Of a stretch of DNA of 35,002 nt, positions 3,233-25,453 are shown piece by piece. Position 1 is the stretch's first letter, and every line of letters begins with the position of its first letter. The position numbers were made by a program, and so were the translations under genes. This DNA is from Cyclobacteriaceae bacterium (GTDB taxonomy: Bacteria > Bacteroidota > Bacteroidia > Cytophagales > Cyclobacteriaceae): positions 1-35,002 of the forward strand of contig JAEUUI010000016.1 in the NCBI GenBank assembly GCA_016786585.1. Reading direction: 5' to 3'. The notes beneath the pieces were generated by a model, which was not told the origin of the DNA, searched no databases, and saw nothing but the letters and a program-made list of their open reading frames with translations.

Positions 3233-5110
3233 TTAAATCAGTGCGAAAAATAGAAAAATAATCAATCCGGTCACCGCCCAGAAAATGTAAAGCTGAATCT
3301 TTCCAGCCTGGAAGGAGCGGGTGATTGAACCAATCCACTTGACAACCCGGCCGCTGGTATCAACAACACCGTCAATAATATATTGATCGAACCAGGCGAT
3401 TCCGTGTGCGAACGACACATGTGCATACGCAACGAAGTGAAGTATGCCGTCAAGCACTTTTTTATCAGTCTTGGTTGCTCCAGACGCCAATGCAAGAACC
3501 GCAGGGCCAATGGTTTTTTGATAGAACGAATCGACACCAAACCCATTTTGAAAAAATGTTATACTCTTTGCCGATGCTTGTTTTGAATAAAGCAGTGTTG
3601 CCACGATCAATGCAATGAACACGGTAACCGTGGAAAGCCCTGCGGCAACAAAATTTGTTTCTGCTTCTGCAAACATTGTGTAGAACCAACCGGAAACATG
3701 AATAGGATTGAAGGAAACAATGAACCAGCAGGAAGCGATGGCACAGATTATCATCGGCACTCGCATTACCGAAGGAGCTTCGTGTATGGTCAGGGTTGAT
3801 TCTTTTCCGAAGAACACAAAGCGGATCATCCGGTAGCTATACAGCACGGTAATAAACGATACCAATGCAATTAATAGTGAAAAGATCCATTGAGCGGATG
3901 GATTCGGTAAAGTCCATGCGGCTGTCAGGATCGAATCTTTCGACAGAAAACCCGAGAATAACGGTATTCCTGAAAGTGAAGCTGCTGTTATGCAAAAAAC
4001 GATAAACGTAATGGGCAGTTTTTTTCGCAAGCCTCCCAGATTGCGGATATCCTGAATGTCAACTTTATTCTGATCAGTTGTTTGATGACTTAACGCATGG
4101 ATCACCGATCCGGAAGCCAGGAACAAACCGGCTTTAAAAAATGCGTGTGTGAACAAATGAAGCAAGGCAGCATCTTTTGCTCCCAGACCAATCGCAGTAA
4201 TCATAAGTCCCAACTGGGAGATGGTTGAGTATGCAAGAATTTTTTTTATATCAAATTGATTCAATGCGCACAACGCTCCGAACACAGCGGTGGAGATTCC
4301 GGTGATAGCGATAACAATCAGGGCAGTTTCAGTCAGTAAAGAACTAATGCGAATAAGCAGAAAAACCCCTGCGGCAACCATTGTGGCGGCATGCAACAAG
4401 GCAGATACGGGTGTTGGGCCCTCCATGGCATCCGGCAGCCAGAAGGATAAAGGCAGCTGTGCTGACTTTCCAATAATGCCGCAGAAAATGCAAAGCACTC
4501 CGGTCGTTAACCAGAATGAATCAATGGGTATTGATTGATGAACGAAGATTATTAAAATCCCTACGAGCATAAACGCATCGCCAATGCGGTTGAAGAGAAA
4601 AGCTTTGTGTGCAGCTTTCGCTGCGGCAGGTTTCTCCATCCAGTGCCCGATTAATAAATAAGACGAGAATCCCATCAATTCCCAGAACATGAACGTCAGG
4701 ATCAGTTGGTTCGACAATACAATCCCAAGCATGGAGAATGTAAAGAAACCCAGCATGCCGAAGTATCGCGTAAGTTTCGGATCATATGCCATGTATCCGG
4801 TTGAATACACGTGAACGAGAAGTGACACGACAGACACAACAATAATCATCAGTCGTGAAGATGAATCCAGCACGAGGCTAAAATTCAGTTCAGTGGTGCT
4901 GATGGAGAACCAGTGGGCATTAATGAAGACGTTCCCATCAGAAAAGAACAGCACAAAGCTGACGATTGCACATGCCACCAGAAAAATGGAAGAAGTTATG
5001 CTCGCGACCCAGCTGTACCGCTGCGGGATGACGAAACTTACAACAGCTGAAAGCAGCGGGAGTATCAGTACAAGCGCAAGCAGATTTTCTAATGTGGATG
5101 GATTCGGCAA
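3233..5110 (-). CDS. nuoL: NADH-quinone oxidoreductase subunit L
   Basis: This 625-residue protein is the most distal antiporter-like subunit of the complex I membrane arm. It is recognised by the WELMGFSSYLLIGHW segment (conserved Glu), by GKSAQLPLSFWLPDAMEGPT (conserved Lys and the WLPDAM motif), by the SALLHAATMVAAGV helix, and by a long C-terminal region ending in a last membrane helix, as expected for the lateral helix of NuoL. The only start ahead of the first membrane helix is a TTG 3 bases after the nuoK stop; no in-frame ATG lies between them. It is in the operon order K-L-M-N. Confidence 0.96.
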   Translation of the reverse strand: MPNPSTLENLLALVLILPLLSAVVSFVIPQRYSWVASITSSIFLVACAIVSFVLFFSDGNVFINAHWFSISTTELNFSLVLDSSSRLMIIVVSVVSLLVHVYSTGYMAYDPKLTRYFGMLGFFTFSMLGIVLSNQLILTFMFWELMGFSSYLLIGHWMEKPAAAKAAHKAFLFNRIGDAFMLVGILIIFVHQSIPIDSFWLTTGVLCIFCGIIGKSAQLPLSFWLPDAMEGPTPVSALLHAATMVAAGVFLLIRISSLLTETALIVIAITGISTAVFGALCALNQFDIKKILAYSTISQLGLMITAIGLGAKDAALLHLFTHAFFKAGLFLASGSVIHALSHQTTDQNKVDIQDIRNLGGLRKKLPITFIVFCITAASLSGIPLFSGFLSKDSILTAAWTLPNPSAQWIFSLLIALVSFITVLYSYRMIRFVFFGKESTLTIHEAPSVMRVPMIICAIASCWFIVSFNPIHVSGWFYTMFAEAETNFVAAGLSTVTVFIALIVATLLYSKQASAKSITFFQNGFGVDSFYQKTIGPAVLALASGATKTDKKVLDGILHFVAYAHVSFAHGIAWFDQYIIDGVVDTSGRVVKWIGSITRSFQAGKIQLYIFWAVTGLIIFLFFALI

Positions 5111-5113
5111 GCT

Positions 5114-5407
5114 TTAATCTTTTAATTCGTTGATCTGATCGGGTTCAGAGGTCTGATAATATTTGTATACGCGCAGTACAATCGCTAATCCAACTGCTGC
5201 TTCACACACTGCAACAACAATAACAAATAAGGCAAAGAATCGGCCCGACAGCCCGGGGCTATTCTGGTTAAAAACGATGAGATTAAGATTGGCGGCATTC
5301 AGCATCAATTCAATTCCAATCAAAACCATGATAGCGTTGCGCTTTGTGATTACCGTCATTAATCCCGCGGTAAACAAAATCACACCTAGTATTAATGCAT
5401 GCTCCAT
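5114..5407 (-). CDS. nuoK: NADH-quinone oxidoreductase subunit K
   Basis: This 97-residue protein has three membrane helices, the usual size for NuoK (about 100 residues). It has both hallmark membrane glutamates: one in the second helix (GIELMLNAANL) and one in the third (VAVCEAAVGLAIVL), which form part of the central proton path of complex I. It starts at ATG 3 bases after the nuoJ stop and is followed 3 bases later by the TTG start of nuoL. It is a plain member of the nuo operon. Confidence 0.96.
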   Translation of the reverse strand: MEHALILGVILFTAGLMTVITKRNAIMVLIGIELMLNAANLNLIVFNQNSPGLSGRFFALFVIVVAVCEAAVGLAIVLRVYKYYQTSEPDQINELKD

Positions 5408-6597: not shown

Positions 6598-8667
6598 TTA
6601 AGAAGCCTTGGGCACGGTAAACCAGAAGGTGCTTCCTTTGCCCTCGGTACTTTCCACCCAGATGCGGCCGCCATTCTTTTCAACAAACTCTTTGCAGAGA
6701 ATAAGCCCGAGACCGGTACCTTTTTCGTTGGCGGTGCCGCGGGTGCTGTATGGGTTTACTTTATCGAATAGCTTCTTCTGGATATCGGCTGGCATTCCTA
6801 CGCCATTATCTTTCACCGACACTACCAGCTCGCGGCCTTTATCTTCCGAAGCCACTACAATTTCGCCCCCGTCATTGGTGAACTTGATCGCGTTGGTAAT
6901 CAGGTTCCGGATTACCAGGTTGATTGTGTTTCTGTCGGCATAACCAATAGCCGTTTCCGGCACACGGTTAACCATGTTAACATGTTTGGTTTGAAGTGAT
7001 CCAAGAAGCTCGATGTTTTCATCTACGATTTTCTTGAGCTGAACATTGCTGGCCTGCAGGTGCATTTTATCCATCTGCAATACAGTCCAGTCAAGCAGGT
7101 TGTTCATCAGAGCGCGGGTGTGATTGAAGCGCGTTTTCAATTCCTTCACGGCAACCGGAAGTTCATCAGCGGTAATGGCGCCTTTATCAAGCAAATCCAT
7201 CAAACCGGCAAGCGCATTAATGGGCGAACGAAGGTCGTGCGAAATAATCGAGAAGAACTTGTCTTTTACTTCATTTAGCTGTTCAAGCTCTTCACTTCGC
7301 TTTTGCATTTCTTCCTGATGCTGTAATAACAACAGGTTGATTTGTTTTCTGCGTTGACCGCTGCGATAGACGGTCACGAGCAATATTGCGCTCAACGCAA
7401 CCACCACCACCAGAATATTGCTGATGAATTCGCTTTTCTTCAGGCGCGACTGGCGATCTTCTTCCTGCATGGTAAGCGCAGCGATCTTGTCGTCAAGTGT
7501 TTCAGTTTCGAAACCGATCTGGTCACGAAGAATTTTCTGTTGAATTTCATTGCTGTACAAACTGTCTTCCAGCGCATGGAATTGCTTGAAATAGCCCAGT
7601 GCTTTTTTATGATCGCCTTTTGTTTCCCACAAGGCAGCAAGGAGTTTATAGCAGGAGATTTCCAGCACACGGGCTTTAATCTCGTTGGCCAGGCCGAGTG
7701 CTTTTGTGGTGTAAATCAAAGCTTCGTCTGTCTTGCCCTGTTCCTTATATACGGTAGCCCGCCCGAGTTCAACTTCGGCAATTCCGAATTTGTTGGCCGC
7801 CTGGTTATGGAGATTGATGGTTGAATCATAGTAAGCCAGTGCTTTGCTATAATCTTTTTTGCCGAGGTAAGCTTTGGCAATTTTTGAAAACGTTTTTGAC
7901 TGGTCTTCGCGCAACATTACGTTTCCGCTTTCTTTCAGGAGCTTATTCGCTGAGGCCACTGAGAGATTCAAATAGTGGAGTGCAGAATCATATTCGCCCA
8001 TTCGCAGTTTTACATCGCCTATCTCGTCAAGCGAGTACGGTTCGCCCTCACGGTCGTTGATTGCTTTGCTTATCTCACGACTCGCTTTTAAATGTTTTAA
8101 GGCAATTTCATATTGACCAAGCTCTTTAAACACCCGGCCCAGGTTATGTAAAGCAATTGTGGTGGTTAGCGAATCGGTCTTATCCTTAGCTGCTTTTTTC
8201 AGGATTTTGAATGCATACGTAAGAAAGTAGTAAGCCTCATCGTATTCACCCAATTCATAATAGAAGTTACCCATGTTGTTATGACTGCGGGCAATGGCAA
8301 TACTGTCTTTGCTTGAGATAGCGCCCTGAAGGCCGATCGATTCATACTTTACCGCGTTTGTGTAGTCGCCTTTATAATAATAGTTCAGGGCCAGGCGTTG
8401 GGCGGCACGTTGCTTCAGCGGGTAATTCTTGATTTTTTCAGAAAGCTCAATCGCTTTTGTCGTATACGTCAGACTCTTTGAGAAGTCCTTAAACGCATAC
8501 AGGTCGCTGAGCTGGGTAAAAGCCTTGATACGGGTAGTATCGGGGATGCCCTGCGAAATCACAACTTCGAGGCTATCGATCTGATGGCCATTTTGGGCCA
8601 CCGAATGAGTCATGCTGCCACAGATCAGGAGCAGCGCAAAAACGGGTATAAGGAATATTTTTCTCAC
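6598..8667 (-). CDS. TPR-containing sensor histidine kinase inserted in the nuo operon
   Basis: I choose the GTG at 8667 as start: it overlaps the nuoH stop (GTGA) and opens directly into a signal peptide (VRKIFLIPVFALLLICG). The product has 689 residues. Residues about 35-390 are a chain of tetratricopeptide repeats, presumably periplasmic. A single membrane helix lies near 412-435, followed by a short coiled coil and a kinase core. The H-box is SHDLRSP with the phospho-acceptor at about His477, the N-box NLVIRNLITNAIKFT, the G1 box DNGVGM and the G2 box GTGLGL. No receiver domain or neighbouring response regulator is present, so the partner is unknown. An older, longer reading frame from 8739 exists but lies inside nuoH. 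Confidence 0.9.
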   Translation of the reverse strand: MRKIFLIPVFALLLICGSMTHSVAQNGHQIDSLEVVISQGIPDTTRIKAFTQLSDLYAFKDFSKSLTYTTKAIELSEKIKNYPLKQRAAQRLALNYYYKGDYTNAVKYESIGLQGAISSKDSIAIARSHNNMGNFYYELGEYDEAYYFLTYAFKILKKAAKDKTDSLTTTIALHNLGRVFKELGQYEIALKHLKASREISKAINDREGEPYSLDEIGDVKLRMGEYDSALHYLNLSVASANKLLKESGNVMLREDQSKTFSKIAKAYLGKKDYSKALAYYDSTINLHNQAANKFGIAEVELGRATVYKEQGKTDEALIYTTKALGLANEIKARVLEISCYKLLAALWETKGDHKKALGYFKQFHALEDSLYSNEIQQKILRDQIGFETETLDDKIAALTMQEEDRQSRLKKSEFISNILVVVVALSAILLVTVYRSGQRRKQINLLLLQHQEEMQKRSEELEQLNEVKDKFFSIISHDLRSPINALAGLMDLLDKGAITADELPVAVKELKTRFNHTRALMNNLLDWTVLQMDKMHLQASNVQLKKIVDENIELLGSLQTKHVNMVNRVPETAIGYADRNTINLVIRNLITNAIKFTNDGGEIVVASEDKGRELVVSVKDNGVGMPADIQKKLFDKVNPYSTRGTANEKGTGLGLILCKEFVEKNGGRIWVESTEGKGSTFWFTVPKAS

Positions 8668-16459: not shown

Positions 16460-19400
16460 TTAAACCGTATGTTGGGTTTCGCGGTACGCGTCAGGGGGAA
16501 ATGTCTTTTTGTACAACATCGGCACTTTATCCATCCACGTAACTTCAATTGAGTACACCCCAAAGTCTTCCGTTACTTTTCCTTTGATCTCGTAGAATCC
16601 CCGGCCACGCAAAGGGTACTTTTTTTCGATTTCCGGAAAATGAACCGTGTCAAATACTTTTCCTTCCCGATCGTTGAATGTCGCAAATGCCATCGGTACT
16701 CCGCTCCGCGTAAACGTTGGCTTGGTAGTAACGCAATATCCGAGGATGTAAATTTCTTTTCCGAGGTGTTGCTTCAATTCGCCTGCTAAAATTCCACGGT
16801 CAGGATTTTCAATCAGCCTGAATGGATTGCAGAGTGGAAAACCCAGCAACTCGATCTCATCAAATGCATCTTCAATTTCGTTTCGATGCAATGCCGGTAA
16901 CGGATAATCTTTTGGTTCGGTGTCAAACAAATCGGTTGTGGTCTTGTCTTTCCTTTTCGCATCACTGAACCAAAGCATGGCCTCCCACAACAACTGTTGC
17001 TTCGTTTTGTTGATGAAGCGGAAGGCGCCAATGCGGATCAGGATTCGAATCTGCTCCAATCCTAAGTCAACCCTGCGGAGGAAATTGTCCAGACTTTTGT
17101 ACGGTCCGTTTCGTTCGCGTTCTGCCGCCAGTTGTCGCGCGACATTGGTTTCCAGGCTTTTCAAATGAACAAACCCCATGTAAATGCGATCCCCGTGGAT
17201 CGTTGTGAGGTATTCACTGTGATTTAAGCAGGGCGGTTCAATTCTGGCACCATTCATTCGTGCTTCGTGAAAGTAAAATTCGGTGCGATAGAATCCGCCA
17301 AAGTTGTTGATCACGCCCACCATAAATTCCAGCGGGTAGTGTGCTTTCAGAAAAAGACTTTGATAGCTTTCCACAGCATAGCTTGCGGAGTGTCCTTTTG
17401 CAAATGAATATCCTGCGAAACTCTCAATCTCATACCAAACGCGATCGGTGATAGGCTGTGGATATAACGTCTTACAGTTTTCAAAAAATTTGTCTTTCAC
17501 GCGCTGAAACTCTTCGCGCGACCGATACTTTCCCGACATGCCCCTGCGCAACACATCCGATTCGGTAAGCGATAATTTTCCAAAATGATGCGCAACTTTA
17601 ATAACATCTTCCTGGTACACCATCACACCAAACGTATCCGCCATCAGTTCGTCCATCACTGAATGGATGGATTCATACCGAATCCCGTTTCGCGTCATGT
17701 GAAAGCGTTTGATGTACTCCTGCATCATACCCGAACTGGCAACCCCGGGCCGGATGATGGAACTTGCGGCAACCAGGGTTAAGTAATCGTCACACTTTAG
17801 TTTTTCGAGCAACATGCGCATCGCGGGCGACTCTACATAAAAGCAGCCTGTTGCTTTGCTGTGGCGGAGGAGGTCTTTAATCTTTTCATCCTGTGTAAAC
17901 TTCCGGAATTGGTACACATCAACTTCAACACCCTTATTGCGCTTCACATGCTTCACGGTTTCTTTGATGTGCCCGAGTCCGCGCTGACTGAGAATATCAA
18001 ACTTATAAATACCGAAGTCTTCCGCTGCATGCATTTCAAACTGCGATACCGGCAAACTCTTCGGTGGAAACTCCGTTGCCGTATAGGCATAGATGGGCTT
18101 CTCGGTAATCAGCACACCGCCTGCGTGAATGGAGATGTTGGCCGGCAGCTCAAGCGAAACGATGTATCGGGCATAACTAAAAATCAATTCAGCAATGTGA
18201 TCCCGTTTTAACGGCATCTTACGCGTCTCTACAAGGGTGTTGATTTCTTCTTTCGGTAATCCGAATACCTTCCCCAACTCACGAAGGATTGATTTCTCCT
18301 GATACGTAGTGTGTGTTCCCAGCAGACACACATGATCGTAACCATACCGGTTAAAGATGTATTCGTAAATCGCATCGCGGTTATCCCACGAAAAATCGAT
18401 GTCGAAATCGGGCGGTGTAACCCGCTCTTCATTCAGGAATCGTTCGAAATATAAATTCAGTTCGATGGGGTCAACATTCGTAATGCCCAAACAAAACGCC
18501 ACGGTGCTGTTGGCCCCGCTTCCGCGACCTACGAAATCGTACCCAAGTTTTTTTGCATGAAGAATCAAGTCATACGCGATCAGGTAGTATGCCGTAAATC
18601 CCTTGTTCTGGATGATGGTCAATTCTTTTTCAATGTGTGAATTCCACACTTCGGGCTGATCTTTATACCGTACCGCGAATCCTTTTTTTGTTTCCTCCCG
18701 GAGATAGGCAACGTCCGCTTCGATTGACCCGGAAAAAAACTTTTTGTTCTTGTCTTCACCCTGCTCGCACTGAATGCTGCATTGGTCCAGCAATGTTTTT
18801 GCGTTGGCTGCGAGCTCGGGGAACGAATCGAATTGCTCATGCAGGTCATTCTCCGGCAGCATAAATTCTTCCTTCAATGCCTGGTGATTTTCAGGCAGCT
18901 TACTGAGGAGCGTGTTGTTTGCAATGCTGCGCAACAGGCGATGCGTATTGAAATCACGCCAGATAAGTTTTTTCTTATTGCGCTGATCGGCAAAGGGCGG
19001 TAAAAACGTAACCGGATGCCAAAGCACAAACTTATAAATGTATTCTTGGCGCACCGGATTAGCTGCGTACTGTATCAGCTGATGTTTTCGGATACCGATA
19101 AATTCATTTGAACGTAATTCTTCGGGTTCCACAGCTCCGCTTCCGTAAATCACAAACACATTGTCGAAACGGGGAGCGCGTACGGGAAATGGTTTTGCTT
19201 CGCGGTTATGGTGGGAGAGAAAGCGATTAATCTCCTCAAACCCGGCATTGTTTTTAGCTAATGCAACGTAGAGAAAGTCGTTGTCGTTGCGAAACTCAAC
19301 ACCAACAATAATGTCAAGATCAAATGGCTCTTTCCCGAATTTTGTCTTGCCGTTTTCCTGCGCCCGGTTCTCGTTACAGGTGCGCAGCATGTCAAGCCAT

Positions 19401-19528
19401 GAAGCCGTGTTGTTGATTTCGGTTAATGCGAGCTTATGAATGTTGCAACGTTTAGCTTCTGCAAACAAGGCTTTAACCGGCAGCGTGCCGTATTTAAAAC
19501 TGTGTCCCGTGTGACAATTCAGATACAT
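16460..19528 (-). CDS. dnaE2: DnaE-type DNA polymerase III alpha subunit, short DnaE2-like form
   Basis: This C-family polymerase has 1022 residues from ATG 19528 (MYLNCHTGHSFKYG), shorter than E. coli DnaE (1160) and close to error-prone DnaE2. In order it has an N-terminal PHP domain and a palm with GRGSGANSTVAFCLG. Catalytic aspartates lie in PDFDIDF (about 373-379), with the third in KFDIL (about residue 511). The FGVMVYQEDVIKVAHHFG and AGYSFAKGHSASYAVESY regions follow, then a helix-hairpin-helix stretch (LRRVDLGLEQIRILIRIGAF) and a C-terminal OB fold. It starts 17 bases after the 2H phosphoesterase gene, last in the putative dinB operon. A second alpha subunit for chromosome replication is expected elsewhere, which is an inference. 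Confidence 0.9.
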   Translation of the reverse strand: MYLNCHTGHSFKYGTLPVKALFAEAKRCNIHKLALTEINNTASWLDMLRTCNENRAQENGKTKFGKEPFDLDIIVGVEFRNDNDFLYVALAKNNAGFEEINRFLSHHNREAKPFPVRAPRFDNVFVIYGSGAVEPEELRSNEFIGIRKHQLIQYAANPVRQEYIYKFVLWHPVTFLPPFADQRNKKKLIWRDFNTHRLLRSIANNTLLSKLPENHQALKEEFMLPENDLHEQFDSFPELAANAKTLLDQCSIQCEQGEDKNKKFFSGSIEADVAYLREETKKGFAVRYKDQPEVWNSHIEKELTIIQNKGFTAYYLIAYDLILHAKKLGYDFVGRGSGANSTVAFCLGITNVDPIELNLYFERFLNEERVTPPDFDIDFSWDNRDAIYEYIFNRYGYDHVCLLGTHTTYQEKSILRELGKVFGLPKEEINTLVETRKMPLKRDHIAELIFSYARYIVSLELPANISIHAGGVLITEKPIYAYTATEFPPKSLPVSQFEMHAAEDFGIYKFDILSQRGLGHIKETVKHVKRNKGVEVDVYQFRKFTQDEKIKDLLRHSKATGCFYVESPAMRMLLEKLKCDDYLTLVAASSIIRPGVASSGMMQEYIKRFHMTRNGIRYESIHSVMDELMADTFGVMVYQEDVIKVAHHFGKLSLTESDVLRRGMSGKYRSREEFQRVKDKFFENCKTLYPQPITDRVWYEIESFAGYSFAKGHSASYAVESYQSLFLKAHYPLEFMVGVINNFGGFYRTEFYFHEARMNGARIEPPCLNHSEYLTTIHGDRIYMGFVHLKSLETNVARQLAAERERNGPYKSLDNFLRRVDLGLEQIRILIRIGAFRFINKTKQQLLWEAMLWFSDAKRKDKTTTDLFDTEPKDYPLPALHRNEIEDAFDEIELLGFPLCNPFRLIENPDRGILAGELKQHLGKEIYILGYCVTTKPTFTRSGVPMAFATFNDREGKVFDTVHFPEIEKKYPLRGRGFYEIKGKVTEDFGVYSIEVTWMDKVPMLYKKTFPPDAYRETQHTV

Positions 19529-19545
19529 CTGCTGTATCTGGGTGA

Positions 19546-20052
19546 TTACGAAAGTGGCAATTCGGTGTAGTAGCTCCACTGGCCATCGTTACTGCGGAGT
19601 ACCGTAATCGATTCGCATTTAAACGAGTTGGCGTATTTGGTATGGCGAATGGCCGGCCAGAGTTTATTGAAATCTTCTTTCGTGAGATTCTTGGCAAGCG
19701 TAATGTGCGGCAGAATTTCCTCGCCCGTGAGTTTCCGCATTAACTCACACACGGAGTTTTTGTTGATAATGTTCAGGCAAATTGTGCGGTTTTCGCCATG
19801 GTGCAGCACATAAAAGCCATTGATGTAAATCGTGAATGGGCGGAAACCCGAAAGCACGTTATCGGCAATGTGGTACAGGATGTTGTCGCTGTGTATATCC
19901 TGATATTTAATAAGCGAGATATGTGCTTTAGAAAATTCGCTTTCATACGAATGCCCCAAAATCCTTCTGAACCGTTGCTTGAAAAGCGAAACGTCTTTCG
20001 CAATAGGGGTGGGGGGTGAAATCAAAAGAAAATTGTCGGTCGCCTCTTTCAT
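19546..20052 (-). CDS. 2H phosphoesterase, 2'-5' RNA ligase family
   Basis: The 168-residue product has the two tetrapeptide signatures of the 2H superfamily: His-Ile-Ser in KAHISL (His44) and His-Ile-Thr in LPHITL (His116), about 72 residues apart as expected for the two-lobed fold. Known members hydrolyse 2',3'-cyclic phosphates or cyclic oligonucleotides, or ligate RNA ends in vitro; substrate cannot be inferred here. It starts at ATG 18 bases after the transposase stop and ends 17 bases before the dnaE2 ATG, so it is embedded in the polymerase operon. Confidence 0.88.
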   Translation of the reverse strand: MKEATDNFLLISPPTPIAKDVSLFKQRFRRILGHSYESEFSKAHISLIKYQDIHSDNILYHIADNVLSGFRPFTIYINGFYVLHHGENRTICLNIINKNSVCELMRKLTGEEILPHITLAKNLTKEDFNKLWPAIRHTKYANSFKCESITVLRSNDGQWSYYTELPLS

Positions 20053-20070
20053 AATTGTTTTCTTATTGAA

Positions 20071-20712
20071 CTAATGTGCATTCAGCCATTTAGCTGGATT
20101 ATTGGCTATGTATTGCCGGATAATATTCAATTCAGATTCAGCGTGAATCACACGATCGTAATATCGCGGCTGCCACTCGAACTCGAGTTTATTCATCACC
20201 GCATATTTCTTTACTGCAGCTTTAAACCCACGAATAGTGGATGCAAGGTTTTCCGACTGGGGTTTGAACGAATTTGTTCGCCAGCTTTCGTATTTCGGCC
20301 GATTCAAAAATAAAATGCCGTGTATGTGGTCGGGCATGATAACGAATGCGTCCAATTCAACAAACGGGAAATGTTTGGGAATATCCTTCCAATATTGATT
20401 GGCGATATCACCAATTTGCGTCAACATTTGTACCGGCCGTAGAGACGCAAAATTTTGCGTCTCTACATTTTGGGCCACTGCATTTTGCGTCTCTACATTT
20501 TGGGTCGCTACATTTTGGGCCCCTGCATTTTGGGTCCCTGCATTTTGCGTTCCTACGTTTTGTGTAAAACCGTTATTTTTTACAATCCGTCCGAAATACG
20601 GTTGCTTACTTTTCGTGCAAATGGTAACGAAATAAAACCCGCGCGAACCATAATCCCAATTTTTTAACCGGGTGGTCTCGCTGCGATACGTGTTTTTATA
20701 TTTCGTTGACAT
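20071..20712 (-). CDS. REP-associated tyrosine transposase (RayT, Y1/HUH family)
   Basis: This 213-residue protein opens with KNTYRSETTRLKNWDYGSRG, as in Bacteroidota RayT proteins. It has the HUH metal motif in MPDHIHGILF (His129 and His131), the WQPRYYDR segment holding the probable nucleophilic Tyr, and the family end YIANNPAKW. RayT proteins nick short palindromic repeats and are usually single-copy domesticated relatives of IS200. Residues about 50-88 are an extra low-complexity insert of seven to eight pentapeptides (Thr/Ala-Gln-Asn-Val/Ala-x) encoded by tandem DNA repeats. The frame is intact. It sits between dinB (20-base gap) and the 2H gene (18-base gap). Confidence 0.88.
   Translation of the reverse strand: MSTKYKNTYRSETTRLKNWDYGSRGFYFVTICTKSKQPYFGRIVKNNGFTQNVGTQNAGTQNAGAQNVATQNVETQNAVAQNVETQNFASLRPVQMLTQIGDIANQYWKDIPKHFPFVELDAFVIMPDHIHGILFLNRPKYESWRTNSFKPQSENLASTIRGFKAAVKKYAVMNKLEFEWQPRYYDRVIHAESELNIIRQYIANNPAKWLNAH
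20439..20466. repeat. Perfect 28-bp palindrome inside the RayT gene
   Basis: The half-site GTAGAGACGCAAAA (20439-20452) is followed immediately by its exact reverse complement (20453-20466). It resembles the dispersed REP-like palindromes on which RayT proteins act; that link is an inference. In the RayT frame it encodes part of TQNFASLRP. Confidence 0.9.
20452..20571. repeat. Tandem array of seven 15-bp repeats plus one degenerate copy
   Basis: On the plus strand, units of the form ATTTTGnGnnnCTnC begin at 20452, 20467, 20482, 20497, 20512, 20527 and 20542. A degenerate eighth unit begins at 20557. The first unit is one arm of the 28-bp palindrome. Unit length is a multiple of three, so the array adds whole pentapeptides to RayT. 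Confidence 0.92.
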
Positions 20713-20732
20713 TTGATTTTTGTTTCATTTCA

Positions 20733-21938
20733 TTACGCCACGGCACGCGAAACCTTGCCCTTAAACATGTTCATTTCCATGCGCACCCTGCGGCTGACGC
20801 CAATTGTTGTGGCACGTACAAGTTTTTCAACACCATGCTTATGCTTGATGGTGTCAATCGCTTCGTACAGGTTAATCGTCTCGGCCGTATCGTTGAAGAG
20901 ATCAATTTGATGATTTCCATGTACCAGGTTGCTCAATCGTACGCCCACCAGGCGAATGAGCATTCTTCTGTTATAAAGTTTATCGAATAATTCCTGAACA
21001 ACCCGCAGAATCACGTGATCGGAAGATGTATAAGCGATGTGAACCTGCTTGGTTTCTGTGTCAAAGTTCGAGTAGCGGATCTTCACCGTAATGCACGAAG
21101 CGAGCTTCTTCTGTTCGCGCAGTTGAAATGAAACTTTTTCGACCATCGCAATCAGGATCGACTTCAATCGCTTTACATCGATCGTATCTTCTTCAAAAGT
21201 CGATTCCGTGGAAATTGATTTTTGTTCCGAATACGAAACCACCGGCGATTCGTCAATGCCGTGTGCTTTATTCCATAATGAAATGCCATTCTTGCCAAAA
21301 GCGCTTGTCAGAAACTTTAACGGCATCTCGCGCAACGTTCCCACCGTACGCACACCCATGTCATATAAGAAGGAGGAAGTCTGCTTTCCGATCATCGGGA
21401 TTTTATCTACCGCCAGGGGCGACAGGAATCCCTGTTCGTCTCCGGCTGCAATTCGTTTGGTGGCTACCGGCTTAAATTCACCGGTGGCAACTTTCGATAC
21501 CAATTTGTTTACCGACATAGCCATCGATATCGGCAGACCGCTTTCTTTCGTGATTTTCTTTTGGAGTTCAACAGCCCATTTAAAGGCACCGAAATATTTG
21601 TCCATTCCGCTGGCATCCACATAAAATTCATCAATAGATGATTTCTCGAACTGGGGCGCAGCATCGGCAATAATATTAGTGACCTGGTGAGAGGCTTCAC
21701 TGTATGATTCCATGTCGCCCGAAATAACTTTTGCATCCGGACACAGCTGTAGCGCCAGGTACATTGGCATAGCCGAGTGAACCCCAAACCTGCGTGCTTC
21801 GTAACTGCAGGCTGCCACAACGCCCCTGCGACTGCTTCCGCCCACAATCAGCGGAATACCTTCGAGTTTTTTATTTTTTCTGCGCTCAACGGCCACGAAA
21901 AACGCATCGAGGTCGAAATGAATTATGTTTCTGTCCAT
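20733..21938 (-). CDS. dinB: Y-family DNA polymerase, DinB/Pol IV type
   Basis: This translesion polymerase has 401 residues from ATG. Catalytic acidic residues are all present: Asp9 in HFDLDAFF, and Asp103 and Glu104 in SSIDEFYVD. This separates it from ImuB-type proteins, which have lost them. Palm, thumb (IPMIGKQTSSFLYDMGVRTVG helix-hairpin-helix) and little-finger regions follow, and a beta-clamp binding motif of QxxLF form, QIDLF, lies at about 344-348. It is first in a closely spaced run with RayT, the 2H gene and dnaE2. It diverges from the LexA-like gene across a 72-base operator region. Confidence 0.94.
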   Translation of the reverse strand: MDRNIIHFDLDAFFVAVERRKNKKLEGIPLIVGGSSRRGVVAACSYEARRFGVHSAMPMYLALQLCPDAKVISGDMESYSEASHQVTNIIADAAPQFEKSSIDEFYVDASGMDKYFGAFKWAVELQKKITKESGLPISMAMSVNKLVSKVATGEFKPVATKRIAAGDEQGFLSPLAVDKIPMIGKQTSSFLYDMGVRTVGTLREMPLKFLTSAFGKNGISLWNKAHGIDESPVVSYSEQKSISTESTFEEDTIDVKRLKSILIAMVEKVSFQLREQKKLASCITVKIRYSNFDTETKQVHIAYTSSDHVILRVVQELFDKLYNRRMLIRLVGVRLSNLVHGNHQIDLFNDTAETINLYEAIDTIKHKHGVEKLVRATTIGVSRRVRMEMNMFKGKVSRAVA

Positions 21939-21949
21939 GCGGCTAATTA

Positions 21950-21996
21950 ACTAAAAATTTTAGTATCAAAATAAATTGATAACTAAAAAATTTAGT
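21950..21996. promoter_or_regulatory. Symmetric double operator between dinB and the LexA-like gene
   Basis: Two 15-bp palindromes, ACTAAAAATTTTAGT (21950-21964) and ACTAAAAAATTTAGT (21982-21996), share the form ACTAAA-N3-TTTAGT. Their centres are 32 bp apart, about three helical turns. Between them TATCAA-N6-TTGATA (21964-21981) is centred almost exactly at the midpoint. The likely ligand is the LexA-like protein encoded alongside, controlling both directions; this is inferred from position and symmetry. Confidence 0.82.
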
Positions 21997-22006
21997 ATTA
22001 CTTTTG
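21976..22006 (+). promoter_or_regulatory. Promoter of the LexA-like gene
   Basis: TTG (21976-21978) and TACTTTTG (21999-22006) are separated by 20 bp and match the Bacteroidota TTG/TAnnTTTG pattern exactly. The downstream operator box lies between the two elements, the expected place for repression. The ATG begins five bases after the -7 element, so the message is probably leaderless or nearly so. Confidence 0.75.
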
Positions 22007-22010
22007 AACT

Positions 22011-22790
22011 ATGTCGATGGTGAATAAAAACCTGCGATTCCTCCGTCTTCAAAAAGGATGGACGCAAAAAGAATTGGCTGAAAAGCTTTCGCTGAAGCAG
22101 CCGGTGATCGGTGCGTATGAAGAAGAACGCGCAACGCCTCCGCTGGGATGCCTGATGGAAATCTCCGATCTGTTTAAGATCAGCATCGACACGCTTTCGC
22201 GGAAAGATTTAAGCAAGCTGCCGGAAATTAAATGGCGTGATACATCGGCCCCGGTGAAAAAGGAAGTGCTGGCGATTACCGTGAACAGCGAAGACAAAGA
22301 GAATATTGAGTTGGTATCGCAGAAGGCTGCAGCCGGATATTTGAACGGCTACCAGGATCCGGAATATATTAAAGACTTACCCAAGCTTAGCCTGCCGGTA
22401 TTGCCGCGCAACGCAACCTATCGGGCATTTGAAATCAAAGGTGATTCGATGCTGCCGATACAATCGGGCGCGATTGTGTTTGGAGAATATGTGGAGAAAC
22501 TACCGGAGGTTAAGAATGGGAAACTGTACGTGCTCGTAACCGAGAATGACGGCATCGTGTTCAAGCGCGTATTCATGAATGACGACAAACTTTTGCTTGT
22601 GTCGGATAACCGCGAGTACGAACCGTACTCCCTAAATGCGGCAGATATTAAAGAAATTTGGGCTGTGAAAGCATTCTTCTCAACGAGATTTCCCGACATG
22701 GACGCCACAAGTTTCTCGGCCGATCAGCTCGCAGCCTCGGTACTCGAGCTTCAGGAAGAAATCAAACAGCTGAAAAAAGGAAAAAAATAA
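22011..22790 (+). CDS. LexA-like repressor: XRE helix-turn-helix plus S24 autoprotease
   Basis: This 259-residue protein has an N-terminal XRE-type HTH (about 6-62, RLQKGWTQKELAEKL), a linker, an S24/LexA peptidase domain and a C-terminal coiled coil (about 238-257). Self-cleavage parts are all visible: a scissile Ala108-Gly109 in KAAAGY, nucleophile Ser146 in KGDSML and general base Lys185 in VFKRVF. Such proteins cleave themselves when RecA filaments form after DNA damage. It diverges from the polymerase operon and shares its operator, so it most likely represses itself and dinB. Start codon may be the ATG at 22011 or the third codon, also ATG. Confidence 0.92.
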   Translation: MSMVNKNLRFLRLQKGWTQKELAEKLSLKQPVIGAYEEERATPPLGCLMEISDLFKISIDTLSRKDLSKLPEIKWRDTSAPVKKEVLAITVNSEDKENIELVSQKAAAGYLNGYQDPEYIKDLPKLSLPVLPRNATYRAFEIKGDSMLPIQSGAIVFGEYVEKLPEVKNGKLYVLVTENDGIVFKRVFMNDDKLLLVSDNREYEPYSLNAADIKEIWAVKAFFSTRFPDMDATSFSADQLAASVLELQEEIKQLKKGKK

Positions 22791-23356: not shown

Positions 23357-25453
23357 CTACAAATTTATCCACTCTGATCGTTTCAACGCCAGATACCGGT
23401 CGTTCTCGGCATCGTACACAAGATAGTCGTACATCTGCGGAATCGTATTCAAACCCTTTAATGTAGCCAGGCCATATTTTCCATCCTGCTTCACCACGAT
23501 GTACCCGTTGCCGATATCTTCAATCGACTCGTACTTCGGATGAAGCAACACGTTTCCATTTTCATCAGCCAGGCCTTTCGATCCATTCAGGGTTAACAAA
23601 AGGCGCTTTGTTTTCAATACTTCTACAGAATTATACCTCACTGGCAATACAATCTTACCTTCGTTGTCCATGTATCCAAACAACCCTTTTTGCTTGACAA
23701 TCGAATGGCCATTCGCGTAGGGAGTTACCTCATCGTAAGCCGGATGCACGATAATTTTTTCATCGCGGTTAATGAAGCCCCATTTGTTTCGGATTTTAAA
23801 TGCTGCCAGTCCTTCGCTGAACGGCATGATATCTTCATACCGGTTTGCAATGCGCAGCCGGCCGAGATCGTCAATGAAACCATATTTTCCCTGACGCTTG
23901 ATCCCACGTAACCCTTCCGATGCCGGAAAAACTTTTTCGGTTGTCTCAACCGGAGGTAATTGCCTGCTTACAATCTTTCCGTCAAAGTCGATCGTCCAGT
24001 TTCCGCCGGTTGAAATGTATTCGGTAAAATTCTCCGCATTAACGCTGATCGGGTTGTCGGTGAAGTACAGCACGGTTCCGTCAAACGAAACCAGGAACAA
24101 CGTCTTGTTAACTTTTTTGAAGTAACGATCTTTATTCAGCAACCTGACTTTGCTGGTTTGCGGATATACGAGCCATTGTTCACGCGAATTGATAATTCCA
24201 TACAAGCCCTTGAATTTAACGGCAAGCTGATCATCACCCGTTTCCAGGATGCTGTCGTATACACACGCTACCACCTCTCTTCCGGTTTCGTCAATCGCAC
24301 CCCAGTAATTTTTGCGTGTAACCGTGAAGAGGTTTCCATGTTTTTGCCCGATCCGGTCGTAAGGCTTTGAAGTTCTGAGTAACCCGGTCGTGTCGCGCAT
24401 CGACCAGTTATTGTTTCCGTCCTGCGTAAGCAAGTACGATTCCTCAAACAAGATTCTTTTAAAAGCAGGTTTCAATAAGATCCCGCCTGACTTTTTCATG
24501 ACGCCATAACCGGAATTTGTTTTGAATATGGCTAGACCATTCTGAAACGAATCTATATCAGTAACGCTTTGACTGGTGATGTGTTTAAAATTCAGATCGG
24601 TCAGCCAACTTTGTGCGCCACTGAGGATTTTATAACGATTCTCACCCAGATACGCGATGGAATCACCCTCTACAATTTCCGCGGTTTTGTTTTCCGCAGT
24701 CATCACCAGCCATTCGTCTGGCATGCGTGCACGAATGCCTTCCGGTGTAATATTAATCTCGCGAAATTTCGCTTCCGATTTTAATTGACCTTCGCGGTTA
24801 ATCAATCCTTGTTTGCCGTTCTCATAGATGATCGCTACATCCTGTTTGAAGCTTGACAGGCTGTCGATCGTAAATCCTGAAATCTGTTTACCGCCTTCGG
24901 AATACAAGGCAATCTTGCCTGTAAAATCTTCAACCGCATACCGCAAGCTTCCGATCGGATAAATGTTTTTATACTCGAATGGGATCAGCACTTTATTCTC
25001 CAAACTGATCAACCCGTGTTTGAATTTATTTCCGTCACGGACGAAGGCAACGATTCTCAGCGAATGTACCTTGACACCGGCATAGGTAAACGGAATGATC
25101 ACTTTGCCTTCTGTATTGATCAATCCTGCACTCACCACAACAGGGGATGATTTTTTTGTGGCGATAAGCAGTGATCCCTCAGCAGGCATCAACGACAGGT
25201 AATCTGCTTGTGTGATCTGTTGGTTGGTAACGGATACAATGCCCCAGGTTCCACCGAGTTTATAACCTGTCACGTTTCCGGAAATGGAAAATGTGCCGTT
25301 GCTCCACCCCAGTGCATCATATTTAGCGGGTATAACTATCTGACCAGCTTCATTTTTCAACCCAAATTTTCCATTTTCCTCAAACGGAATGAAAGGTCCC
25401 GCAACCGTTGTCAGACTGCAAACAAGAACCGTTAAAACAAGAATCAATCGCAT
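23357..25453 (-). CDS. Secreted WG-repeat protein
   Basis: A signal peptide (MRLILVLTVLVCSLTTVAG) is followed by about 680 residues made almost wholly of degenerate WG repeats. The pattern is aromatic-Gly followed by a short loop, then an isoleucine/valine strand and P-x-x-Y-D/E. The clearest copies are near the C-terminus, such as KWGFINRDEKIIVHPAYDEV and KYGFIDDLGRLRIANRYEDI. WG proteins are common in Bacteroidota and are thought to be extracytoplasmic beta-rich scaffolds, but their function is mostly unknown. No catalytic motif is visible. It is divergent from the MBL-rhodanese gene and preceded by TATATTTG. Confidence 0.88.
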   Translation of the reverse strand: MRLILVLTVLVCSLTTVAGPFIPFEENGKFGLKNEAGQIVIPAKYDALGWSNGTFSISGNVTGYKLGGTWGIVSVTNQQITQADYLSLMPAEGSLLIATKKSSPVVVSAGLINTEGKVIIPFTYAGVKVHSLRIVAFVRDGNKFKHGLISLENKVLIPFEYKNIYPIGSLRYAVEDFTGKIALYSEGGKQISGFTIDSLSSFKQDVAIIYENGKQGLINREGQLKSEAKFREINITPEGIRARMPDEWLVMTAENKTAEIVEGDSIAYLGENRYKILSGAQSWLTDLNFKHITSQSVTDIDSFQNGLAIFKTNSGYGVMKKSGGILLKPAFKRILFEESYLLTQDGNNNWSMRDTTGLLRTSKPYDRIGQKHGNLFTVTRKNYWGAIDETGREVVACVYDSILETGDDQLAVKFKGLYGIINSREQWLVYPQTSKVRLLNKDRYFKKVNKTLFLVSFDGTVLYFTDNPISVNAENFTEYISTGGNWTIDFDGKIVSRQLPPVETTEKVFPASEGLRGIKRQGKYGFIDDLGRLRIANRYEDIMPFSEGLAAFKIRNKWGFINRDEKIIVHPAYDEVTPYANGHSIVKQKGLFGYMDNEGKIVLPVRYNSVEVLKTKRLLLTLNGSKGLADENGNVLLHPKYESIEDIGNGYIVVKQDGKYGLATLKGLNTIPQMYDYLVYDAENDRYLALKRSEWINL

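Follow-up and report, generated by a model that had tools for sequence, protein, structure and literature searches.

The window analysed here, a stretch of 35,002 nucleotides from a Cyclobacteriaceae bacterium that is one entire contig (JAEUUI010000016.1) of assembly GCA_016786585.1, carries a gene cluster in which a LexA-like repressor gene stands divergent from dinB, a RayT-like gene, a gene for a 2H-fold protein and a gene for a short DnaE2-like polymerase. Judging from the genes and sites that the sequence holds, we consider it likely that the cluster is a damage-switched translesion cassette of a type already published for Bacteroidota, and that the 2H protein serves DinB as a binding accessory. 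The 2H gene, which a first-pass annotation of this DNA listed merely as an extra member, is the part of the cassette with new content. Its lineage has lost catalytic histidines several times, and purifying selection on the protein persists after the motifs are lost, which suggests that the 2H companion is a helper not yet described, perhaps one that acts through binding. Y-family polymerases such as DinB need partners for tethering and timing, and a 2H-fold partner, if this reading is correct, would be a new solution. Natural 2H members with and without the catalytic histidines make the question of enzyme or scaffold directly testable. Papers are cited below by PMC number.

A 2H-fold gene beside dinB

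The 2H gene (19546–20052, minus strand) encodes 168 amino acids that match the Pfam family 2_5_RNA_ligase2 (PF13563; 40.7 bits, cut-off 27), with the His44 and His116 motifs, both of HxS/T form, present. The AlphaFold2 model of the protein is a confident 2H fold (predicted local distance difference test score (pLDDT), 93.4). The structure nearest to it is YjcG (2d4g; template modelling score, 0.81), followed by other 2H enzymes that include LigT and plant cyclic phosphodiesterase. The window protein shares its fold and both motifs with 2H phosphoesterases such as YjcG, LigT/ThpR and the plant enzyme, whereas its lineage differs from them in the repeated loss of catalytic residues and in its tie to dinB.

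We compared 17 genomes of the genus (G000, the window's genome, to G016), one genome of another genus (G031) and the best 80 of 583 loci from a collection, 56 of which hold DinB (L numbers mark these loci and also stretches of the genus genomes). The genus-genome and collection sets share records (L002 and G002:C33 are one and the same), and counts are kept separate except in the 2H alignment. All 17 genus genomes have a 2H match (E = 1.7 × 10−24 or better), and in 10 of them (G000, G001, G004, G007, G008, G010, G011, G012, G015 and G016) the genes for DinB, 2H and DnaE2 follow in this order on one contig, with a separation of about 2.2 kilobases (kb) between the first two in G007 and G012. 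The order also fits in G002, divided over two contigs, and is present in G031 and in 6 of the 56 DinB-bearing collection loci (L004, L010, L014, L020, L038 and L051). The L010 locus is from Chryseotalea sanaruensis, a cultured relative. DinB is the likelier partner of the 2H protein, because G009 has the DinB–2H pair without a DnaE2 of the window type. In seven genus genomes, dinB and a candidate start of the 2H gene overlap by four bases at the dinB stop (ATGA), an apparent sign of translational coupling of the two genes.

A profile built from 24 aligned 2H proteins found 13 matching frames in 12 of the 80 loci, and 12 of the 13 lie within 1 kb of the DinB–DnaE span, a margin chosen after the matches had been seen. 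Seven of the matches had themselves fed the profile (L002 through its twin, L145), and the fairer count is therefore that of the other six, five of which lie near the cassette (P = 0.0014). Two of these matches (L031 and L049) stand divergent to dinB, and in both loci two operators lie upstream of dinB.

That the 2H gene is instead a passenger in a convenient promoter slot, with an unrelated duty like the RayT-like gene, seems to us unlikely. The slot between dinB and dnaE2 does gather genes, namely two types of RayT, other frames in L005 and a gene for an SOS response associated peptidase (SRAP) in L040 and, by likeness, in L044. Many close relatives have no 2H gene between dinB and dnaE2 (for example, L003, L005–L008 and L011–L013), and 5 of the 17 genus genomes (G003, G005, G006, G013 and G014) carry it away from dinB. 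In G003, G005, G013 and G014, dnaE2 is apart from both dinB and 2H; in G006, a 3.1-kb contig that has no dinB carries the 2H gene, and neither 2H nor dnaE2 was seen beside dinB. A passenger would not be expected to show the ATGA overlaps, the clustering of profile matches at the cassette (12 of 13, or 5 of the 6 from outside the profile, within the post hoc margin) or the DinB–2H pair that G009 keeps without window-type DnaE2. The orphan 2H genes come after a gene resembling those of iron–sulphur assembly (Pfam check in L152), and the one in G003, and by likeness that in G014, precedes a repair gene of AraC/O6-methylguanine-methyltransferase type (Pfam checks in L146 and L152), which also speaks against an unrelated duty.

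Literature searches that required all terms gave, in the text that they covered, no paper tying a 2H gene to dinB or dnaE2, and the main texts of PMC8565304 and PMC3765255 do not contain 'RNA ligase' or 'phosphoesterase'. The Deinococcus cinA–ligT–recA operon contains a 2H-type gene, ligT (PMC2669436), and is like the window's unit in placing such a gene in a damage operon. It differs in its partner, recA rather than dinB, and its 2H protein is a different one from another phylum, likened here by description. This operon shows that 2H genes can stand in damage operons; it offers no precedent for the tie to dinB.

Two further arrangements of 2H genes are recorded here. In L146 (6159–8056) and L157 (5971–7866), where 2H is away from dinB, it lies between the iron–sulphur assembly type gene and the AraC/O6-methylguanine-methyltransferase type gene, another repair context. 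In L038, a metagenome-assembled genome of Roseivirga, dinB lies between 2H-fold genes at 4781–5389 and 7362–7964, of which one keeps its motifs and the other does not, possibly a pair of enzyme and pseudo-enzyme.

Catalytic histidines and selection on the 2H protein

Of the 24 aligned 2H proteins (18 from the genome set and 6 from collection loci), 13 have both HxS/T motifs intact, and in the other 11 they are broken. His44 persists in 19 of the 24 and His116 in 17, and of the 166 columns 36 are more conserved than the first and 59 more than the second. The control set comprises 19 ordinary 2H relatives, of which 18 share the family of the window's genome and the remaining one its order; all 19 keep both motifs, among them six second 2H genes within the genus. 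On a 2H tree computed without the catalytic columns, the motif state changes a minimum of seven times, and four of these changes are forced by well-supported branches; several long-branch joins are unsure.

Selection was followed through ratios of nonsynonymous to synonymous substitution rates (dN/dS). Between the 2H genes of G004 and G008, both with serine in place of histidine, we count 41.5 synonymous changes and 11.5 others (dN/dS = 0.05), and those of G010 and G012, both without the first histidine, give 0.08. Selection is weaker between G005 and G013, which have neither histidine (dN/dS = 0.18). The computed pairs with both histidines intact range from 0.04 to 0.11, with some synonymous sites saturated. 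The fold of the G005 protein, which lacks both histidines, is still predicted confidently (pLDDT 89.4). A binding accessory role is proposed because selection on the remainder of the protein outlasts the loss of its catalytic histidines; the 2H protein would bind protein or nucleic acid in its old active-site cleft, as an accessory of DinB, and catalysis would be dispensable.

The same data bear on whether the 2H protein is a working phosphodiesterase induced by damage, acting on 2′,3′-cyclic phosphates, ADP-ribose cyclic phosphate or a signal nucleotide, with a remnant kept in the histidine-less lineages. In favour of this, the window protein and 12 others of the 24 have both motifs unbroken, and the nearest solved folds are YjcG, LigT and plant cyclic phosphodiesterase. 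The operon that ligT shares with recA in Deinococcus (PMC2669436) also fits. We nevertheless think this somewhat unlikely: selection after the loss is about as strong as before it in G004–G008, if weaker in G005–G013, 36 and 59 of the 166 columns surpass the two histidine columns in conservation, and every ordinary 2H relative examined retains both motifs.

We acknowledge that several observations weigh against a binding accessory of DinB within a jointly controlled cassette. The window's own 2H protein keeps both motifs. The contrast with ordinary relatives (11/24 versus 0/19 broken; Fisher P = 0.0008) treats related sequences as independent, and confined to the genus (8/17 versus 0/6 ordinary paralogues) it gives P = 0.058. 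Six further 2H matches in the loci are mixed, four keeping both motifs and two (the second copy in L038, and L064) not. The lost state is unclustered on the tree, with 7 changes where shuffling gives 8.2 on average, and about 135 of 500 shuffles are as low. To these are added the relatives described above in which 2H or dnaE2 stands apart from dinB, and the clustering of 2H matches at the cassette, which is partly built in by the make-up of the profile, so that the excess is weakened. A separate operator on the detached dnaE2 genes of G003, G005, G006, G013 and G014 was also considered and rejected, as none, exact or with one mismatch, lies within 400 bases upstream (187 in G005); joint control is therefore not essential. 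The next same-strand frame after dnaE2 in the window lies 63 bases on, and the operon may extend beyond dnaE2. Transcription, operator binding and mutagenesis by the cassette in this organism are predictions from its sequence.

Repressor, operators and polymerases

The repressor gene (22011–22790, plus strand) encodes a non-canonical LexA-like protein of 259 amino acids, with HTH_3 (PF01381; 40.3 bits) and S24 peptidase (46.9 bits) domains that both score over the Pfam cut-off. Its cleavage and catalytic sites are placed by motif and position at Ala108–Gly109, Ser146 and Lys185 (AAAG at 106, GDSM at 144 and FKRV at 184). The lexA–dinB gap of 72 base pairs (bp) holds ACTAAAAATTTTAGT and ACTAAAAAATTTAGT, both of the form CTAA-N5-TTAG with starts 32 bp apart, which were absent from the first-pass account of this gap. 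The two predicted operators are exact palindromes with no strand assigned: operator 1 (CTAAAAATTTTAG, 21951–21963), close upstream of dinB, and operator 2 (CTAAAAAATTTAG, 21983–21995). Just downstream of operator 2 sits TACTTTTG, a TAnnTTTG match facing lexA, and such a match beside the outer operator and facing lexA occurs in the window and in four of four relatives checked. We take TAnnTTTG to be the −7 element consensus of Bacteroidota.

CTAA-N5-TTAG occurs at 19 places in the 4.19-megabase assembly, and the chance of two such sites within one 60-bp stretch at that density is about 3 × 10−8. The reversed control pattern occurs at 179 places, making the operator form about nine times rarer than its control in this genome. 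The 15-base form ACTAA-N5-TTAGT is likewise rarer than its own reversed control in all 17 genus genomes (0 to 9 places, versus 2 to 32). The one-contig genome G014 has exactly two sites of this form, both at this cassette.

LexA of the window type is found in 16 of the 17 genus genomes, G006 having no match. Each of the 16 carries dinB no more than about 1.4 kb away on the other strand, and paired CTAA-N5-TTAG sites 31–33 bp apart at dinB; the gene order is therefore not unique to one genome, and the comparison of neighbourhoods proposed in the first-pass annotation shows it recurring in relatives. Of the 56 collection loci that hold DinB, 44 were examined, and 21 of these have the site in the 400 bases before dinB.

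A non-canonical LexA with the CTAA-N5-TTAG operator has been published for Bacteroidetes (PMC8565304), together with mitomycin C induction and motif binding in two other Bacteroidetes species and with small regulons in some clades. The window repressor is like it in combining HTH_3 with S24, in its Ala-Gly, Ser and Lys sites and in having an operator at its own promoter. The regulon looks small, because scans upstream of recA, imuA and the second dinB in the window's genome gave no operator, exact or with one mismatch. In this the window repressor differs from the published group, for some clades of which PMC8565304 reports small regulons. Of the 17 other CTAA-N5-TTAG sites, 11 are inside frames of at least 80 residues and 6 lie 14–69 bases before one. 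The proteins behind these six show no repair link by eye, no database search having been made of them, and the six unexplained sites weaken the view of a small regulon. One site of the other published motif, GGA-N5-TCC (PMC8565304), lies just inside the listed ImuA frame.

The proposal that the repressor is dedicated to this unit is thus partly supported by the lack of sites at recA, imuA and the second dinB, and is called into question by the six gene-front sites and by a second LexA-like paralogue. The idea that the genome has a single LexA-like protein was rejected; the S24 profile had found one, and a protein search gave a second, 38% identical. The gene of this paralogue (L105 1–566, in G000:C20) is cut by the contig end. 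A DUF3375 gene lies about 540 bases from it on the other strand (L105 1110–2384), and DUF3375 is, we presume, the JetA family of Wadjet defence. A damage sensor may here control a defence system.

DinB (20733–21938, minus strand; 401 amino acids; Pfam IMS and IMS_C) has Asp9, Asp103 and Glu104 at the positions from which the first-pass annotation argued that an active polymerase takes the place of ImuB. It carries QIDLF at residues 344–348, which resembles a clamp-binding motif. By eye, residues 360–375 of its tail resemble the beginning of RecA from the same genome (TIDKLEKTYGKGTVM). In the PolY2–DnaE2 pair of PMC6511836, the polymerase tail bears a motif like the RecA N terminus.

The DnaE-like protein (16460–19528, minus strand; 1,022 amino acids from an ATG start; Pfam DNA_pol3_alpha, finger, HHH_6 and PHP) retains the motifs PDFDIDF and KFDIL. 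It scores 411 bits on the error-prone DnaE2 model NF004225, below the cut-off of 939, and we infer from its sequence that it is the short DnaE2 form described in Bacteroidetes (PMC3919608). DnaE2 of the window type (at least 61% identity) is present in 16 of the 17 genus genomes and not in G009. The longest DnaE frame starts with GTG at 19579 and overlaps the 2H gene; given the ATG start at 19528, the intergenic gaps of the dinB–RayT–2H–dnaE unit are 20, 18 and 17 bases, as first reported.

Operons with two apparently active polymerases, PolY2 and DnaE2, and without ImuA or ImuB-C are published for Bacteroidetes (PMC6511836). The window's unit is like this putative mutasome (the Cellulophaga algicola example) in pairing an active Y-family polymerase with DnaE2 and in having neither ImuA nor ImuB-C, and operons of the wider group often include lexA (PMC6511836). 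It is unlike the mutasome in adding a 2H-fold gene and a RayT gene. As the polymerase pair (PMC6511836) and the repressor with its operator (PMC8565304) are both published, the core of the cassette is not new, and the novelty first claimed for it falls away. Its outline stands: gene coordinates with Pfam and NCBIfam matches confirm the five-gene layout (RayT scoring under both cut-offs), and domains and operators support an SOS-type S24 repressor over a dinB–dnaE2 unit without ImuA.

The unit contains neither ImuA nor an inactive ImuB, and so is not a classical cassette. It is like an imuA–imuB–dnaE2 cassette in placing a Y-family protein paired with DnaE2 under LexA-type control, and unlike one in having no ImuA, in keeping the Y-family catalytic residues and in its short DnaE2, far below the NF004225 cut-off. 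The absence of ImuA holds for the unit itself and not for the genome, which has a classical-type imuA–imuB–dnaE2 set elsewhere (L107 3478–8954, in G000:C14). For the genomes with such operons, in contrast, PMC6511836 reports imuA nowhere. The set comprises an ImuA-like protein that falls short of the NF033429 cut-off (59.8 versus 150 bits), a Y-family protein resembling ImuB (42.2 bits on PF00817) and a DnaE2 (NF004225, 1371.6 bits). The scanned region upstream of the set has no CTAA-N5-TTAG. A third DnaE, at 27–28% identity as in this set, is found in 3 of the 17 genus genomes (G000, G002 and G011). An SRAP gene lies about 1.1 kb downstream of the set. SRAP genes also occur between dinB and dnaE2 in other Bacteroidota (L040 7164–7991, by Pfam; L044 7151–7978, by likeness).

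These features can be assembled into a working model. A dimer of the LexA-like protein would bind both operators in the lexA–dinB gap and repress in both directions. On damage, RecA filaments would trigger self-cleavage of the repressor at Ala108–Gly109, and the dinB–(RayT)–2H–dnaE2 unit would then be transcribed. DinB, held at the sliding clamp through QIDLF and at RecA through its tail, would insert opposite the lesion, and DnaE2 would extend from there or share the gap. Known or proposed partners of Y-family polymerases include UmuD′, ImuA/ImuB-C and YolD (PMC6511836). A more specific version, which we put forward tentatively as a possibility, makes the 2H protein a mutasome subunit of a new kind, a former phosphodiesterase that binds DinB as UmuD′ or ImuA/ImuB-C would, in a regulon of little more than one promoter. 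A LexA regulon of about one promoter, if real, would offer a clean setting in which to study the shrinkage of SOS networks.

The RayT-like gene and a neighbouring gene

The RayT-like gene (20071–20712, minus strand; 213 amino acids) is assigned from sub-cut-off profile scores, just under the threshold for PF01797 (Y1_Tnp; 22.5 versus 23.0) and below that of NF047646 (60.3 bits versus 80). Its type occurs in the cassette regions of 2 of the 17 genus genomes, G000 and G011, and G002 has its first 35 codons followed by a RayT of another type. The other type stands after 2H in G004, G007 and G010 and before it in G002 and L010, and is seen by eye in the dinB–dnaE2 slot of L008. RayT is the only gene between dinB and dnaE2 in L003, and adjoins dnaE2 at a contig end in L009.

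We rejected RayT as a conserved member of the cassette, since its position varies about 2H and most genus cassettes show none. The gene is probably a passenger that entered an insertion-tolerant slot between dinB and dnaE2. The first-pass annotation had envisaged a novel five-gene mutagenesis design with RayT as a working member and a dedicated repressor. The window type does recur at the slot (in the window, G011 and L003, and beside dnaE2 in L009), as does the other type (in L010, G002, G004, G007, G010 and, by eye, L008). Given that RayT lies on either side of 2H or is missing, that the G002 copy is cut short by the other type and that the remainder of the set is already published, we regard such a design as very improbable; the window type is limited to two genus genomes and one remnant.

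Near the cassette, the window also encodes a WG-repeat protein (PF14903) of 698 residues (23357–25453), with no link to the cassette seen.

Genes for RayT, the REP-associated tyrosine transposase, typically occur once in a genome that also carries a short palindromic repeat associated with them. The window's genome has one match to the window RayT, and the palindrome form is found at six places, one of them within the RayT gene. This is a perfect palindrome of 28 bp (GTAGAGACGCAAAATTTTGCGTCTCTAC), in frame at 20439–20466, and degenerate repeats of its half run in frame over 20439–20565 (AQNVETQN repeats); the gene presumably carries its own repeat. In G011 (L154), the RayT gene contains 24-bp units of this half-site in a longer run and closes with the same palindrome.

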